Positions 47,052 through 56,378 of a stretch of DNA of 64,000 nucleotides are shown here, piece by piece. The DNA is from Nitrosomonas sp. (lineage in GTDB: Bacteria > Pseudomonadota > Gammaproteobacteria > Burkholderiales > Nitrosomonadaceae), in assembly GCA_019635215.1 (NCBI GenBank), contig JAHBZZ010000013.1:1-64000 (forward strand). The letters are read 5' to 3'. Numbering within the stretch: position 1 is the first letter of the stretch; each line of letters opens with the position of its first letter. The position numbers and the translations under genes are program-made. Under the pieces are notes generated by a model. The model was given only the letters and a program-made list of their open reading frames with translations, did not search any database and was not told the origin of the DNA.

Positions 47052-47143
47052 GGAGAAGTGACCGAGCGGCTGAAGGTGCACGCCTGGAAAGCGTGTGTAC
47101 GGCTCAAACCGTACCGCGGGTTCGAATCCCGCCTTCTCCGCCA
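47052..47143 (+). tRNA. tRNA-Ser(GGA)
   Basis: A 92-nt tRNA with the long variable arm of class II. Acceptor GGAGAAG/CTTCTCC, anticodon loop CTGGAAA (anticodon GGA), T arm GGTTCGAATCC, encoded CCA at 47141-47143. Mobile-element sequence begins right after the CCA, so it is a probable integration site. Confidence 0.96.
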
Positions 47144-47857: not shown

Positions 47858-49246
47858 AAATTCTGTGTCATTCCTTTATTATTAATATTATAGGAGTGAC
47901 AAATGAACAAGACTACATCGCAATTTGATTTTGAAGAAGCCTTGGACGCACTTAAATCAGGACGTGATTTGAATGGAAAAGATGGCATATTGACGCCATT
48001 GATCAAACAACTCACAGAAGCTGCATTAGCGGCGGAACTTGAGCAGCATATAAAATCCACAGATGAGCAGAACCGGAAGAATGGAGCCACGCCAAAGACC
48101 GTAAAGTCGGCTTCAGGCAGTTTTCAACTGGATACGCCTCGAGACCGCAACGGTACATTTGAGCCGCAGTTGATTAAAAAGCATCAGACTCATCTTACCG
48201 ATGAAGTCGAACGCAAAATTCTATCGTTATTTGCGTTGGGCTCTAGCTATCAGGATATCTCTGGGCATATTGCCGAAATGTACGACATTGACGTTTCATC
48301 AGCCACGATCAGTGCAGTCACTGACAAGCTTATTCCGGAGCTCAGGGAGTGGCAGCAACGGCCATTGGAGAGTCACTATCCGTTCGTGTGGCTGGATGTC
48401 ATGCATCACAAGGTGAAAGACGATGGCCGGTATGTCAGCAAGGCTGTCTATACCGTACTCGGCTTAAACATTGAAGGAAAAAAAGAAGTTCTGGGGTTGT
48501 ATGTATCGGAAAGTTAAGGTGCCCGGTTCTGGCTTTCCGTACTGACAGACCTGAATAACCTGGCATACAGGATATCCTCATTGCCGCCGTTGAAGGCCTT
48601 ACGGGCTTTCCAGAGGCGATCAACAGCATATTTCCTGAAACCGAGATTCAGTAGTGCATCATCCATCAGATCCGCAATTCAATGAAATATGTAGCGTCAA
48701 AAAATCAAAAAGCGTTCATGGCCGATCTGAAGCCGGTATACAAAGCACCGGCCATTGATGCAGCCGAAGATGCGCTTGATGCATTGGAGGCCAAGTGGGG
48801 GAAACAGTATCCCATCGTGACCCAATCCTGGCGCAACAAATGGGAAAATTTATCGGTATACTTTAAATATCCAGAACCGATACGCCGTGTGATTTATACA
48901 ACCAATACCATTGAAGCCGTACATCGCCAGTTTCGCAAACTGACGAAAACGAAAGGTGGATTTCCGAATGAAAACAGTTTGCTTAAGTTGCTGTATGTTG
49001 GCATTAAGAACGCCAACTGGAAATGGGCGATGCCCTTTCCAGACTGGAATTTGACATTATCGCAGCTGGCGATATATTTTAAGGGGCGTCTGGATGCAGC
49101 ACTGGATTTATTAATTGATTAGGAATTTTTATAGTGCCGCTGAAAACAGTCAGCCGATCGACACGCACGGTGTCGATAGGTTACCGGTTGAAGTGACTCA
49201 ACAAGCAAGGCCCACTTGACAATTTGAAGGTTGATACAGAATTTTG
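47857..49246 (+). mobile_element. IS256-family insertion sequence, decayed
   Basis: About 1.39 kb. Imperfect terminal inverted repeats AAATTCTGTGTCA (47858-47870) and, on the minus strand, AAAATTCTGTATCA (49245-49232) flank a transposase pseudogene. A right-end stretch (49123-49246) includes a hairpin ATCGACAC/GTGTCGAT. No clear target duplication was found. Confidence 0.65.
47903..49122 (+). pseudogene. IS256-family transposase, disrupted
   Basis: The N-terminal half (47903-48517) contains KDGILTPLIKQLTEAALAAE and LGLNIEGKKEVLG, and the C-terminal half (48682-49122) contains RNKWENLSVYFKYPEPIRRV and IYTTNTIEAVHRQFRK, both typical of IS256-like mutator-type transposases. Three lesions separate them: an in-frame TAA at 48515-48517, a one-base deletion near 48560 and a TAG at 48652-48654. 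The gene cannot make a full protein. Confidence 0.85.
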
Positions 49247-49308: not shown

Positions 49309-49340
49309 TCACATTTGTTCGACAAGCTTGTCAAATGTGA
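49309..49340. promoter_or_regulatory. Inverted repeat upstream of cas2
   Basis: TCACATTTG (49309-49317) and CAAATGTGA (49332-49340) enclose the palindrome GACAAGCTTGTC (49321-49332). It lies 32 bases before the cas2 start and may be an operator or the end of a neighbouring repeat. The rest of the 125-base gap after the IS holds a CTCGACGTGTCGAG palindrome (about 49253-49266) and nothing else I can support. Confidence 0.45.
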
Positions 49341-49371: not shown

Positions 49372-49656
49372 ATGACTCAGCGACAACTCTATCTAGCAGC
49401 TTATGATATATCCAGCAATCGACGATTGCGCAAAGCGCTGTATGTGCTACGGGGTTACGCATCGGGTGGACAGAAATCAGTATTCGAGTGTTATCTGACG
49501 CATGTCGAAAAATCGTGTTTGCTGAAGAATGTCAGTACGATCATCGATCCGTATGAGGATCGATTCATCGTGCTGAAGTTGAGCGGGGGGAGCCATATTC
49601 ATATACTTGGCAAAGCAGTGCTTCCTCAGGATGGCTACTTTTATTATATCGGGTGA
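49372..49656 (+). CDS. cas2: CRISPR-associated endonuclease Cas2
   Basis: A 94-residue Cas2. The first strand YLAAYDISSNRRLRKAL carries the conserved aspartate, and GGQKSVFECYLTH is the family's second motif. It ends at a TGA directly beside the cas1 start. It is the complete one of two cas2 genes in this block. With Cas1 it should insert spacers into a CRISPR array, but no array or effector gene occurs in the window. Confidence 0.88.
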   Translation: MTQRQLYLAAYDISSNRRLRKALYVLRGYASGGQKSVFECYLTHVEKSCLLKNVSTIIDPYEDRFIVLKLSGGSHIHILGKAVLPQDGYFYYIG

Positions 49657-49659
49657 TTG

Positions 49660-50616
49660 ATGAACTGTTTGTATCTTGACCGGAAGAATCTGGAAATCAG
49701 ATTGGACGGGCAGGCATTGGCCTTGTACGAAGACGGTGCTAGGAAGGGATCAGTGCCATTACATTTGCTGGAACGTGTCGTCATGCGCGGTAATGTGCAA
49801 CTGGAAAGTCGGGTACTCGGCGCGTTATCGGCGCGGAATATCGGTCTGTTGGTGCTATCGGGGCGCTATAGCGAAGCGACAGCCATGTTAGCGGGAAGGT
49901 CCCATAACGAGAGTTCCCGTCGGTTAGGGCAATACCGCGTGTGCCTGGATAATAATTTGCGTGCTCCACTGGCGCACTGGCTAGTACTGGTAAAAATCCG
50001 TGCGCAAAAACGCATGTTACGTGAAGCTTTGCCAATGCGCGCGGATTTGCGTCATGCGCTGACTGTGGCAGTGCAGAGACTAGATAACATTATGAATCGG
50101 TTAAAGACAGATTCCGACATGCGGTCACTGTCAAGCTTGCGTGGTTTCGAAGGTGCTGCCGCATCTGCTTATTTCAGTGGATTGACACAGTTATTCGCAC
50201 CGTCCTTAAATTTCACGGGCCGAAAAAAACGTCCTGCACCCGACCCAGTAAACGCGTGTTTATCGCTGGGCTATACGCTTTTGCACAATGATGCCGTGTA
50301 TGCCAGCCATATCGCCGGACTGGATACAATGTTGGGCTTTTATCATGACATCAGTTTTGGACGTGAATCTTTGGCCTGTGATTTGATGGAACCGTTGCGT
50401 CCGCTGATCGACCGGTGGGTGTGGTGGTTGTTTCGTGACCGTACTCTGCGAATAGAACATTTCAGTGATGACAACGGGCGTTGCCTGCTGAACAAAGCCG
50501 GACGTAAGCATTTTTACGGCTGTTACGAAGCGAACAGTGGTCCTGCCAGACGTTTACTGAAGCGATATAGTCATGCACTGGCTAAACGCTGCCAATTAAT
50601 ACATGACGGCGAATGA
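49660..50616 (+). CDS. cas1: CRISPR-associated endonuclease Cas1, intact
   Basis: A 318-residue Cas1. The N-terminal beta domain starts NCLYLDRKNLEIRLDGQALA. The catalytic residues are visible in the helical domain: Glu164 in GFEGAAASAY, His229 in GFYHDISFGRESLA, and Asp241/Glu244 in CDLMEPLRPL. ATG 49660 is preferred over the TTG at 49657. The 3' end overlaps the next gene by four bases. The integrase should be catalytically able. Confidence 0.9.
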   Translation: MNCLYLDRKNLEIRLDGQALALYEDGARKGSVPLHLLERVVMRGNVQLESRVLGALSARNIGLLVLSGRYSEATAMLAGRSHNESSRRLGQYRVCLDNNLRAPLAHWLVLVKIRAQKRMLREALPMRADLRHALTVAVQRLDNIMNRLKTDSDMRSLSSLRGFEGAAASAYFSGLTQLFAPSLNFTGRKKRPAPDPVNACLSLGYTLLHNDAVYASHIAGLDTMLGFYHDISFGRESLACDLMEPLRPLIDRWVWWLFRDRTLRIEHFSDDNGRCLLNKAGRKHFYGCYEANSGPARRLLKRYSHALAKRCQLIHDGE

Positions 50617-51362
50617 TGCGGCCGCTGTATATTGATGGTGCTACCGGTTGCCATGTCGTACTGGATGCGCCAGCCTTGCGAGTAGTCGTGCCGGATCGGG
50701 CGGACCAGTTTTTTGCACTGTCGCGGGTTTCCAGGGTGGTTTGCCAGGGCAACGTGGAATGGTCTATGCAGGCGTTACTGGCCTGCGCAGATGCGGGCAT
50801 TCAATTACTGTTTCTGGGAAAAAACAGTGAAATTCGCGCGCGATGGCTGGGGCAAAGTGGGGAGCGGCAGCAACTTACTCAAAGATTGATCGATTTATTG
50901 TCACGTGCTGACGGACCGGCGCTATATGCAAACTGGTTATTATCGATGGAAAAACTGGCAGTGCGCAGTCTTGCGCGGCGAATTGGTTTTTGTGATTGGC
51001 GCGATTGCTCCGCTGTGGAATTGCACCAGCAAATCAGGCATACATTGGGTCATATTGGCTGGTATCGTGCAACCTTAATTCAAAACATCCTGTACAGTGA
51101 ATTGCTTGTCTTGCTGCCGGAATGCGGTTTTGAACGGGATAACGAAGTATTGCTATCGATGGACCTGGATCTGGCGGCTGATCTCAGCCAGATACTGCTT
51201 TGGGATTACTATATTCCACTCCTGGATCCCGACGTGGTTAAACTCGACGGAAATTCTTTAGAAATAATGGCGGAATTGTTTCAACAGCGTCAAGATCGCT
51301 GTTACAGACTGTTTCGAAGCAGCATTAATAAACTGCATCAATTCTTATTGACAGTAAGCTAA
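50613..51362 (+). CDS. Cas1-like protein lacking the catalytic triad
   Basis: A 249-residue paralogue of Cas1. Its N-terminal beta domain is recognisable (RPLYIDGATGCHVVLDAPAL ... VVCQGNVEWSMQALLACADA). The region that in Cas1 holds the catalytic His and Asp reads CGFERDNEVLLSMDLDLAAD here, with no histidine and no matching acid pattern, and no EG-A-Y segment is present. It is about 70 residues shorter than the neighbour. Overlaps of four bases with cas1 and one base (TAATG) with the truncated cas2 show it is part of one operon. It may be a structural partner of Cas1 rather than an enzyme; this is inference. Confidence 0.72.
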   Translation: MMRPLYIDGATGCHVVLDAPALRVVVPDRADQFFALSRVSRVVCQGNVEWSMQALLACADAGIQLLFLGKNSEIRARWLGQSGERQQLTQRLIDLLSRADGPALYANWLLSMEKLAVRSLARRIGFCDWRDCSAVELHQQIRHTLGHIGWYRATLIQNILYSELLVLLPECGFERDNEVLLSMDLDLAADLSQILLWDYYIPLLDPDVVKLDGNSLEIMAELFQQRQDRCYRLFRSSINKLHQFLLTVS

Positions 51363-51530
51363 TGGCTGACAACCAGAGCAATTTGTATCTGATCGCATAC
51401 GATATTGCTGATTCCAAGCGTCTTGCCCGGGTTCATCGCGTCTTGAAGCAACAAGGACTACCAGTGCAATTTTCGGTATTCATGGTAGTTCTCAATTGGT
51501 TTTTGCCAGACGCTTTACATAACGAATCGA
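51362..51530 (+). pseudogene. Second cas2, truncated
   Basis: Begins at ATG 51362 with NLYLIAYDIADSKRLARVHR and LKQQGLPVQFSVFMVVLN, the first ~45 residues of a Cas2, and then loses similarity near 51500. The remaining frame runs into the relaxase gene on the other strand to 51619. The 3' half is missing, probably from a rearrangement that joined this block to the relaxase. Confidence 0.78.
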
Positions 51531-53723
51531 TCAATCATTACATGAATCATTACGCAACTTCACTGCACCATTTTCTACATAAATCTTGCCAGCATCATGC
51601 CTGCTTGAATTTGCAATAAAACTATGCGTCATCTTGAATCCACGTTCTTTGCACGCTTCAATAAGCGCATTCTTTTCAACAGACACAAATCCATCAGGAT
51701 GATACTCAGCAGCACCGATTGATTGAATAATTGAAACAAGTTCATCCAGGGTTGGATAGCGAGGTCTGTTGGCAGCGTTCGATTTATCCAGTTTCTCGGC
51801 TTTCTCTGATTGTGACTTTTCCGGTACGGCTGATCTGTTAATTGACTTTCTCTGTTTGGCTGACAGTTTCTTCGTCACAGACTTACCGATAATTTTTTTT
51901 GTATCCTGATTGTGATTATCAGTTGTTGCACCTGTATCAAGATTCACAGCAATTTTTTTCTCGCCAGGTACAGATGCTTCCGTCTGTTTCACAGTAGGCA
52001 CATCACCCAATTCATGATTAAAAGCAACACTGATCTCACGCTGTAACCTGATTGCTTTGACAGGTTGTCCGTTGATTTGCGTGTCGATAACTTTTTTCAG
52101 TGGCGCCATGGGATCGATCCATAGCCACTGCCGTTTGTAAAATTCCTCGATGATTTTGATAACGGCAAGTTCGTAATCATTAATTGCGTCTGGCCATCTG
52201 ATCAGCAGACGGCCTTCAGCATCAAACCAGGCGTCATTTCCCCATCGTTTTTTACCCGTCTTTAAATCTTGCGCCAGTTTTTTCAGAAGTGAACCGGTAG
52301 TATCATCTGGGATTACATCTGTTTGTGTAACCGGCAACTTTGAAGTAGCCTGTGCTCGCAATTCCGGCTTTGTTGCAATAGGTGTTTCTGTTGCATACCG
52401 GATCGGAATTTGTGGCTGCGCTTTTATTTTCGTCTCTTGTTCTGACTCTGATCCAGGTTCTGGATACTCTGCTTTTTCTAGAGATTCCACAACATTATGT
52501 TTTTCAGCACACTGCTTTCCATCGATTACCATGCCTTCTACTGCCGGCATCGGCGTCGATGACACCATCGTATCGTTCACCAATCTGACCGCTTGTAACT
52601 GAATGTCCGGTATTTTGTCTGTCAGAACTTTGGGAGAAATTTTCCAAAAATAGTTTTCAGTTGAATTATTCTCACGAGTTGTGACGATTCCTCTTTCAAC
52701 CAGCATATCCAGAATGCCATCGGGTGTGCGCGATATTCCAGGAATTTTGTCTTCACGGATTTGCCTAGCCAGTTCTTCGCCTGCCATCGGCCAGACCAGA
52801 TAAACATCACCGCTTATATTCCAGACTCGCGCACCGGGTGTATTGATCAGCCAAACACCTTCTCGCACGAAGCGCTGCATGATATCGATCAAGACACGTT
52901 CAACAGGCACGCCCAGTTCATAGCCTGCCATGGTGCTGCCCATGGATTCAATGTCGCGTTCCACACTGAGTTGATCCGCCTTGATAACCAGATCATGTAT
53001 CGGGTTTGCAGGATGCGGATTATTATTGAGGGATTCCATCAACCAGATAATAAGATCGACACCGCTCTCCTCTATCCAGTTGAATGTATCAATTCCGATG
53101 ATTCGGTCGCTGATGAGATTGGCCAGTGCTGTGTGTTGCCTTCCCCTATTCTTGCGCCAGTCGATGAAGTAGGCGTTGATGGCATTGTTTTGCGCCCAGG
53201 TATAGAGGTCTTCCTTGATCGGTTTCCAGACGGTCTCGCGGTTGTTGTCCGAGACAGCATAGTCTGACACCGGCTTACCCGTATCGTGGCACAGTGCCGC
53301 TAAAAACACAGCAAGCTGCCAGCGAGGTTCCATTTCCCGGCGCTCAGTGGCTGACGCGATATTCAATAATACCCTGTCGGCTAGTTGCAGTGCGAACAAT
53401 CCAACTTCCAGTGAATGATGCAGTAATCCACCAGCGCCACGGTGATGATGTGACTGTGATGCGGGTAGCAAATGCACAAACTGGACAAAGCGATTAATGA
53501 CCGGCAGGTAGTGATGATTAATGATGTCCGGTGTACAAACCGCCGTTTGCAGTATGCGTTCTATCAGTACATTTTGTGTATTCAATAGAAACTGGGGCGG
53601 CACCACTGGCAAGCCTTTCATGAATGGGGGATAACGAGGAATGTCTTCGCCCTGCCACTGAGTTACCAGGTCTGCGGTATTGATGACAGGTTTCTTTCTT
53701 CTGAAGAATTGAAACAAGCGCAT
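51531..53723 (-). CDS. traI: MOBH-family relaxase (TraI_2)
   Basis: A 730-residue relaxase that would nick oriT and lead DNA transfer. The N-terminal TraI_2 domain has the histidine-rich motif SHHHRGAGGLLHHSLEVGLF (~90-110) and the HD motif LCHDTGKP (~147-154), as in SXT/R391 TraI. A charged linker leads to a C-terminal domain (YHPDGFVSVEKNALIEACKE). The C-terminus overlaps the truncated cas2 frame on the opposite strand. No TraD coupling protein gene follows in this window. Confidence 0.9.
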   Translation of the reverse strand: MRLFQFFRRKKPVINTADLVTQWQGEDIPRYPPFMKGLPVVPPQFLLNTQNVLIERILQTAVCTPDIINHHYLPVINRFVQFVHLLPASQSHHHRGAGGLLHHSLEVGLFALQLADRVLLNIASATERREMEPRWQLAVFLAALCHDTGKPVSDYAVSDNNRETVWKPIKEDLYTWAQNNAINAYFIDWRKNRGRQHTALANLISDRIIGIDTFNWIEESGVDLIIWLMESLNNNPHPANPIHDLVIKADQLSVERDIESMGSTMAGYELGVPVERVLIDIMQRFVREGVWLINTPGARVWNISGDVYLVWPMAGEELARQIREDKIPGISRTPDGILDMLVERGIVTTRENNSTENYFWKISPKVLTDKIPDIQLQAVRLVNDTMVSSTPMPAVEGMVIDGKQCAEKHNVVESLEKAEYPEPGSESEQETKIKAQPQIPIRYATETPIATKPELRAQATSKLPVTQTDVIPDDTTGSLLKKLAQDLKTGKKRWGNDAWFDAEGRLLIRWPDAINDYELAVIKIIEEFYKRQWLWIDPMAPLKKVIDTQINGQPVKAIRLQREISVAFNHELGDVPTVKQTEASVPGEKKIAVNLDTGATTDNHNQDTKKIIGKSVTKKLSAKQRKSINRSAVPEKSQSEKAEKLDKSNAANRPRYPTLDELVSIIQSIGAAEYHPDGFVSVEKNALIEACKERGFKMTHSFIANSSRHDAGKIYVENGAVKLRNDSCND

Positions 53724-55240: not shown

Positions 55241-55382
55241 GTGCACCTGCAGGTGCACTAAAACCAGATTTTCATACTCTCGATCACAGAAATGCTAATT
55301 GAGTGCACCTGCAAGTGCCACAAAATTGTGATTTCAGGCTTCAGAGCAAAAAACGTTTTAATTAATGCACCTGCTGGTGCAC
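55241..55382. promoter_or_regulatory. Three palindromic operator-like sites
   Basis: GTGCACCTGCAGGTGCAC (55241-55258) is a perfect 18-bp palindrome. GTGCACCTGCAAGTGC (55303-55318) and ATGCACCTGCTGGTGCAC (55365-55382) are near-copies, about 62 bases apart. They stand just before the parM start. A dimeric repressor, for instance the ParR-like protein, probably binds here; this is inferred. Confidence 0.65.
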
Positions 55383-55403
55383 TATTTTAAACAGGAGACA
55401 TCA

Positions 55404-56378
55404 TTGAATATTCTGGGCATTGATATTGGCTATTCAAACTTGAAACTGGCCTATGGTATAGAAGACCAACCACCACAAACCTGCCTGCGGCCAGCCGGTG
55501 CTGCGCCCGCCAAATGCTTTGGAACGCGAATTGATGGCACGGCGCATGAAGATTTTTTATATGTGGATGTTGATGGGCAGGAATTCGTAGCAGGTGTATC
55601 TCCGGATCGTGCTGAATTATATAGCCGATCACTGCACGAGAACTACACATCGTCGGATTCATACAAGGCACTATTCCATGCCGGATTATTGCTCACGGAT
55701 ATGGATAAAATAGACACGTTGATTACCGGCCTTCCGGTGTCGCAATACCTGAATGACAAAAAGAGACAACAAATTCAAGAACAGATGCAAAGTACACACC
55801 GGATCACTGCGACACGTCAGGTCACGGTTAATCGGGTCATCGTTTTGCCACAGCCCATTGGTGGATACCTGGACTATATCTCGAATGGCAAGGTCGACAC
55901 TGAAGATGCCAGAATTCTGGTCATCGATCCGGGATTTTTTTCTGTGGACTGGGTTGTTATTGCAAACAGCGTTATTCAGAACCAGTCATCCGGCACCAGC
56001 TTAAATGCATCGTCGGTTTTGCTGGAAGAAACGGCCAAGCTGATAGCCGGTGATTACGAAACATCCATGAATACTGAATCGCTGGAAAATGCCGTGCGCA
56101 AAGGAAAATCGACGGTCATGTTGCTTGGTAAAAAAGTTGAAATAGCACCGTATCTGGAAAAAGCAGGCAAAGCCATAGGTTCAATCGTTGCCGAAACCAT
56201 CCAGAAAGCACTGCGTACAGAAAGCCGCATGGCAGACATTATTGTGCTCGTTGGCGGAGGCGCTGTATTTTTTCAGGAAACTATTAAAAATGCTTTTCCA
56301 CGATTATCGGTTACTACACCGGATGAACCGGTATTTTCGAATGCACGAGGATTTTGGTTGATGGGAGCTGCCAAATGA
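55404..56378 (+). CDS. ParM/StbA-like plasmid-segregation actin
   Basis: A 324-residue actin-like ATPase that polymerises to push DNA copies apart. Phosphate-1 motif GIDIGYSNLKLAYG, phosphate-2 region VIDPGFFSVDWVV, and adenosine motif IVLVGGGAVFFQ are all present. I place the start at TTG 55404, with AGGAGA 5 bases upstream; the ATG at 55365 falls inside a palindromic operator. It overlaps the downstream small gene by four bases. Confidence 0.85.
   Translation: MNILGIDIGYSNLKLAYGIEDQPPQTCLRPAGAAPAKCFGTRIDGTAHEDFLYVDVDGQEFVAGVSPDRAELYSRSLHENYTSSDSYKALFHAGLLLTDMDKIDTLITGLPVSQYLNDKKRQQIQEQMQSTHRITATRQVTVNRVIVLPQPIGGYLDYISNGKVDTEDARILVIDPGFFSVDWVVIANSVIQNQSSGTSLNASSVLLEETAKLIAGDYETSMNTESLENAVRKGKSTVMLLGKKVEIAPYLEKAGKAIGSIVAETIQKALRTESRMADIIVLVGGGAVFFQETIKNAFPRLSVTTPDEPVFSNARGFWLMGAAK

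Follow-up and report, generated by a model that had tools for sequence, protein, structure and literature searches.

Why would a CRISPR adaptation operon encode two Cas1 proteins, one of which lacks catalytic residues? The question is raised by a block of four genes, cas2, cas1, cas1' and cas2', in a Nitrosomonas genome of 3.39 Mb in 46 contigs (GCA_019635215.1). The block stands beside a conjugative-transfer region in the window, by which we mean the whole stretch of DNA analysed, namely the first 64,000 bases of the 85,510-base contig C5. We read it as an orphaned copy of a type III spacer-acquisition module, the intact members of which would form a heteromeric integrase with Cas1' in the position of the non-catalytic Cas1; judging from sequence comparisons, we give this reading a probability of roughly 0.6.

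The original prediction described a cas2, an intact cas1, a shorter cas1-like gene and a truncated cas2 at positions 49372–51530, and the open reading frames (ORFs) and their Pfam matches bear this out, placing the four genes on the forward strand at 49372–51496. The first Cas2 of the operon, of the 'GGQKS.fEc' type (49372–49656; 94 aa), matches PF09827 at 5.4e-12, and Cas1 (49657–50616; 319 aa), whose catalytic triad is intact by sequence, matches the whole PF01867 domain at 2e-70. The third gene (50613–51362) encodes Cas1', a pseudo-Cas1 of 249 aa without the catalytic Glu and His, which matches the Pfam Cas1 family over residues 11–91 only (1.7e-6). Of cas2', only the first 45 codons are present (51362–51496; Pfam Cas2 match over residues 8–45 only, 1.7e-9); its ORF continues to 51619, giving 85 aa, with unrelated sequence past codon 45 that overlaps a relaxase gene on the opposite strand. 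All four ORFs score above the Pfam cut-off, so chance ORFs can be excluded, and Pfam, NCBIfam and PADLOC label them Cas2, Cas1, Cas1 and Cas2 (in Pfam the third by its N-terminal part only; the fourth by its first part only). The best PADLOC match of the window Cas1' is PDLC01185 at 2.8e-7, by a narrow margin over a general Cas1 profile (3.9e-7). The first Cas2 is 92–96 aa long in all 25 loci compared, and the YD motif of Cas2 is present in both Cas2 paralogs. As had been predicted, profile and repeat scans found no array and no effector in the window.

The four genes had been taken for two Cas1–Cas2 sets fused together; the comparison with related loci shows instead that cas2-cas1-cas1'-cas2' is one old, conserved operon. 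When 24 aligned active Cas1 proteins were used to scan a genome collection, at least 585 stretches matched; 539 relatives were among the matches listed, and the best 80 were kept, these being the nearest relatives by design and not a random sample. The order cas2-cas1-cas1'-cas2' was found in 61 of the 80 loci, plainly in 59 and with extras in two (L076, with cas2' in two pieces, and L082, with an additional cas2' match), while in three (L075, L104 and L140) the block was cut at contig ends. The other 16 loci are cas2-cas1-cas2' triplets without cas1': in none of them are cas1 and cas2' more than 198 nt apart, which leaves too little room for a Cas1', and no Cas1' was found elsewhere in the fetched stretches. 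The genes are tightly packed, with gaps of −30 to +60 nt, by predicted starts, in 68/79 cas2–cas1, 53/64 cas1–cas1' and 56/62 cas1'–cas2' pairs. Fusions among the four proteins were considered and rejected, the ORFs with two family matches being paralogs that score each other. Nor does the block resemble a casposon or a solo Cas1, which would stand without cas2 and array: cas2 and cas2' flank the Cas1 genes in the relatives, and 44/80 loci have arrays. Most loci are proteobacterial, with further quartets in records that bear the labels Nitrospirota, Planctomycetota and Acidobacteriota and in one deltaproteobacterium. The Cas1' profile matched 23/369 genomes of the class and 13/300 of the order; sorting by best profile left a block with Cas1' in 19/23 and 4/13, respectively (the Nitrosomonas genome itself counted in both), and the remaining matches were ordinary Cas1 proteins, save one ambiguous locus (L045). 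Two side observations from these scans are a protein like the defence protein MkoC upstream of the quartet in a Methylohalobius metagenome-assembled genome (MAG; L138, 3279–6464) and the sole locus obtained when viral contigs were scanned with the Cas1 alignment (IMGVR_UViG_2510917027_000003), whose Cas1 is 31% identical to the window Cas1.

The two Cas1 paralogs differ sharply in their catalytic residues. The triad of the window Cas1 (E165, H230 and D242) is invariant in the 24 Cas1 proteins that cover it (window included), and the corresponding columns are E, H and D in 82/82 Cas1 proteins (the 80 related loci plus L013 and L018). Residues of Cas1' were counted over 65 rows, that is, 64 of the 66 proteins found plus the window copy, the partial rows L104 and L018 having been removed by a length filter. 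All 65 rows have a gap in the Glu column; in the His column 64 have a gap and one has Ala, whereas the Asp column holds Asp in 52/65 and Glu in five. The predicted absence of the whole triad was therefore right for Glu and His, missing from every row, and wrong for Asp, so that as a rule two residues have been lost, not three. The same mapping recovered E, H and D in all of 11 divergent ordinary Cas1 proteins used as a control. The most conserved His, Glu and Asp columns among 64 Cas1' sequences reach 30%, 72% and 80%, respectively, the last being the catalytic Asp column itself. A local profile–profile comparison matched 256 columns of Cas1' to Cas1 with a probability of 98.9, and all eight solved sequences hit by the Cas1' profile belong to Cas1 or Cas4–Cas1 proteins, with the match over the N-terminal part. 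We regard Cas1' as a maintained, putative pseudo-enzyme.

Cas1' is under purifying selection. The ratio of non-synonymous to synonymous substitution rates (omega) was 0.08–0.16 in the four of six same-genus pairs whose synonymous divergence (dS) was finite, and was low in both halves of the protein; for cas1, it was 0.06–0.10 in 7/10 same-genus pairs. A quick joint tree (57 rows), which raised long-branch warnings, resolved Cas1' as one clade (support of 99 in the Shimodaira–Hasegawa-like approximate likelihood-ratio test, SH-aLRT; 25 rows) and Cas1 another (92; 25 rows). A quick tree of 82 Cas1 rows placed the triplets among the quartets, with six changes in the presence of Cas1'; 11 of the 16 triplets formed one clade (98), the nearest kin of which were quartets. 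This pattern fits an early gain of Cas1' and several later losses, without proving the direction. The pairwise distances of the four proteins are correlated across 62 loci (r = 0.71–0.84), the largest value in 500 permutations being 0.17.

The intact relatives are tied to type III systems. Among 101 genomes searched with PADLOC profiles (that of the window and its relatives), matches were obtained in five: the window genome, G032, G034, G053 and G020, the last weak and stop-ridden. G032, G034 and G053 carry the same four genes in the same order, with a full-length cas2' of 101–105 aa, so the truncation noted in the original prediction is a feature of the window copy and not of its same-genus relatives. 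In G034 and G053, cas6, CARF genes, cas10, csm genes and an array come after the block, and the effectors are of type III-A. The window genome itself contains the block a second time, on contig C1 (L018), together with homologs of the type III genes of G034 and G053, where the labels csm4, csm5 and csx were assigned by position without a profile test, and with a short array; the genome search for a matching array that had been proposed thus found one beside this second copy. Its repeat occurs in one place in the genome, on C1, as four exact core copies and one with three mismatches 3 kb away (only this repeat was sought genome-wide). Two further Cas1 matches in the genome, on contigs C20 (L003, 831–2093) and C12 (L004), are distant from this kind.

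With the same-genus proteins as references, Cas10 or Csm proteins were detected in 17 of the 80 loci, CARF proteins in 43, Cas6 in 33 and at least one of these in 55, many contigs being short. From the 25 loci without them, five were tested (L080, L095, L099, L127 and L138; ten proteins in total): type III-B Cas10 or Cmr proteins were recognised in three, and no type III match was found in the other two. The relatives share with type III-A and III-B loci the effectors, CARF proteins, Cas6 and arrays beside the block. A simple finder detected arrays in 32 loci with cas1' and 12 without; the repeats are 36–38 nt long in 42/44 arrays (with uncertain ends in L073 and L109) and usually end in GGGATTAAGAC or something near it. 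E/H/D Cas1, Cas2-family proteins, and effectors and an array in the relatives and on C1 (the effectors there by homology) together mark the block as a type III adaptation module. The type III locus of G053 additionally encodes a protein that combines a CARF domain with an adenosine deaminase (L016, 10375–12528), which resembles the Cad1 family; homologs of it occur in 9/80 loci (L063, L068, L071, L100, L110, L115, L118, L121 and L123).

The usual type III adaptation module consists of one cas1 and one cas2. Like the canonical Cas1–Cas2 integrase, the present module has a homologous E/H/D Cas1, a Cas2 with the YD motif and an operon beside arrays; unlike it, the module has two paralogs each of Cas1 and Cas2 in one operon, and one of the Cas1 paralogs is without Glu and His. 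The original prediction would have yielded to a known locus type of the same composition, and in part there is one: the PADLOC profile PDLC01185, 'Cas1, diverged variant, second in the loci', matches 60/62 Cas1' proteins at E ≤ 0.001 (best 6.7e-147), whereas two general Cas1 profiles match 62/62 with best values of only 4.5e-18 and 7.9e-18. The diverged second Cas1 is thus already known as a profile, although the entry consists of that profile and a one-line description and is silent on function, the missing residues and the second Cas2. A literature search, outside which most subscription papers fell, so that absence from print is not established, found no work in which a second, inactive Cas1 is studied as a subunit, and nothing that describes the four-gene module, the residues it lacks or what it does. 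The contig MtG-4_NODE_208, reported as cas2-cas1-cas1-RT-csm3gr7... in PMC11742911, resembles the module in having an adjacent cas1 pair in a type III locus and differs in having a reverse transcriptase, the comparison being by gene list only. The 16 triplets have counterparts in two plasmids, Aeromonas media pMC64A and Sphaerotilus pSna507_unt13, whose Cas1 is similar (E ≤ 1e-50) and whose records annotate Cas2-Cas1-Cas2 beside BREX or type III-B genes; in all of these, two Cas2 flank one Cas1 without any Cas1'.

How the four proteins might work together is suggested by the integrases that have been solved, in which, according to PMC8102632, two Cas1 dimers flank a Cas2 dimer, and a catalytic Cas1a differs in conformation from Cas1b. 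PMC12259127 describes ordinary integrases as symmetric complexes in which one and the same Cas1 is present in both active and inactive copies, yet spacers must enter the array one way. In the module studied here, the four operon proteins may assemble into one heteromeric integrase. The catalytic Cas1 would join the prespacer ends to the repeat, Cas1' would take the place of the Cas1 that in ordinary integrases has no catalytic part and walls the repeat channel, and Cas2 and Cas2' would form a mixed central dimer. With such mixed subunits, the complex may lose its two-fold symmetry, which would help to orient spacers. Cas1' keeps the family start, has lost Glu and His, and stands with Cas2', which is as expected if a dedicated subunit fills the non-catalytic place. 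The heteromeric integrase with one dead subunit in the original prediction accordingly agrees with the conserved operon, which lends it plausibility, and its assembly is a matter of inference. A bolder version, in which two Cas1–Cas1' dimers sit on a Cas2–Cas2' heterodimer and this subunit asymmetry, rather than a protospacer-adjacent motif or Cas4, sets spacer orientation, is put forward tentatively, with the odds somewhat against it.

Several findings weigh against the heteromeric integrase. The 16 triplets lack Cas1' and yet have spacers of the same lengths, so integration in general does not require it. Spacers are mainly 32–36 nt long, and loci with and without cas1' both peak at 33–34 nt; a role of cas1' in spacer length was rejected on this ground. 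A purely structural subunit would need neither the Asp that most Cas1' proteins keep nor the 72% conserved Glu column, which lies near the C-terminus. The part of Cas1' after residue 110, taken alone, matches the end of Cas1 only weakly (probability 70.9). The correlation of distances among the four proteins can arise by shared descent alone, and MAGs appear in 64/80 record titles, so odd single placements may be binning errors.

The alternative that survives best, though still unlikely, is that Cas1' and Cas2' form a non-integrating complex of their own, which captures prespacers or hands them over, or binds the leader, for the Cas1–Cas2 integrase. The gene order, cas2-cas1 followed by cas1'-cas2', does resemble two pairs, and Cas1' has retained its recognisable N-terminal domain. 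Cas2', however, is present without Cas1' in the 16 triplets and, by annotation, in the two plasmids, and does not depend on it. The converse, Cas1' without Cas2', was seen among the 64/80 loci with Cas1' only in L075 and L104, both at a contig edge, and likewise in L034 of an earlier set; it was thus not seen where the contig allowed a Cas2', the cut window copy excepted. This asymmetry favours a single mixed complex, and points to one that would be built first on the Cas2 pair, over a separate Cas1'–Cas2' complex.

A little less probable is that the two copies in the window genome complement each other, with C1 supplying Cas2' and the window supplying Cas1', so that together they acquire spacers for the C1 array. 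On C1, cas2, cas1 and cas2' are intact, and cas1' (L018, 16382–17052) is split into two overlapping ORFs of 154 and 112 aa; on C5, cas2, cas1 and cas1' are intact and cas2' is cut. The genome consequently has no single complete four-gene module. The cas1 and cas2 genes of the two copies are moreover constrained relative to each other (omega 0.06). Set against this, a single genome could show such a pattern by coincidence, the C1 frame break may be an assembly error, and the copies have diverged, with dS values of 0.56 for cas2 and 0.99 for cas1. These values exceed those between G034 and C1 (0.31 and 0.43), and the window copy was rejected as a recent duplicate of C1 for that reason.

It is improbable that Cas1' is just a decaying duplicate without function. 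It is shorter than Cas1, two catalytic residues are gone, and it has repeatedly been lost or broken, as in the 16 triplets, the C1 frame and the weak, stop-ridden match in G020. The low omega in both halves, the single clade and the wide spread with unchanged gene order speak against decay.

The homology of the window copy to intact loci extends from 49358, in the closest same-genus loci, to 51495, and the MobH relaxase gene, on the opposite strand to the right (51531–53723), ends at 51531, 36 nt away; the junction of the CRISPR fragment with the conjugative-transfer region thus lies at 51495–51531. Residues 1–45 are what is left of cas2', and a search with the full-length protein found the rest nowhere else in the assembly. 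On the left, an IS256-family transposase survives in two fragments immediately beside the block (47903–49122), and further out stands a tRNA-Ser gene (47052–47143), which was rejected as an island border because no second copy of its 3' end was found. To the right, on the opposite strand, the transfer region runs through the MobH relaxase, a TraF-type peptidase and MobI, then TraG, TraH and TraF, and further along contig C5 through TraC, TraK, a TrbI-like protein, TraN and TraU; it is of MobH/F type, and a ParM-like actin homologue lies inside it (55365–56378). The actual ends of the transfer element were not located, and the block was found neither inside element borders nor recurring on such elements. 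A tblastn search with the window Cas1' against 72,556 plasmid and 50,697 phage records, able to reveal close relatives only, yielded nothing at E ≤ 1e-3. A service of the block to the conjugative element (in integration, say, or in competition between elements) had been raised as a possibility in the original prediction, and the position 36 nt from the relaxase gene of an F-type transfer region speaks for it. It is highly improbable, because homology to the type III loci of the relatives stops at the junction, which cuts cas2', no plasmid or phage match was found within that reach, the plasmids with a similar Cas1 have Cas2-Cas1-Cas2 without Cas1' by BREX or type III-B genes, and no second tRNA-Ser end marks the block as lying inside an island. 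The window copy is best read as a displaced, damaged orphan of a type III acquisition module in which cas2, cas1 and cas1' are still intact and which, without most of cas2', is probably unable to work alone.

Upstream of cas2, the window contains, within 49310–49339, the palindrome GACAAGCTTGTC (49321–49332), whose core CAAGCTTG (49323–49330) lies 49 nt before the gene. This core occurs within 100 nt upstream of cas2 in 51/81 loci, compared with approximately 0.9 expected, at −49 to −52 in 29 of them and at −68 to −90 in the other 22; a variant of the palindrome is present in two intact loci of the genus, L013 and L018. It is likely to be a promoter or operator element common to these adaptation operons. 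As a motif of array leaders it was rejected, having been recorded in 3/56 leaders, two of them at impossible distances through a script artefact. The leaders themselves (e.g., L063, L068, L071, L072 and L096) share, by eye, a stretch like CAACCCC..TTTGCAA..CTGA before the first repeat.

The window copy itself is of low interest, and that of the module is moderate to high. In this family, the roles of the active and the inactive Cas1, which ordinary integrases assign to copies of one protein, appear to have been split into separate genes that are kept together in many lineages. The module would therefore offer natural material on the role of the non-catalytic Cas1 and on symmetry breaking in the integrase, with the two Cas1 positions separately addressable.

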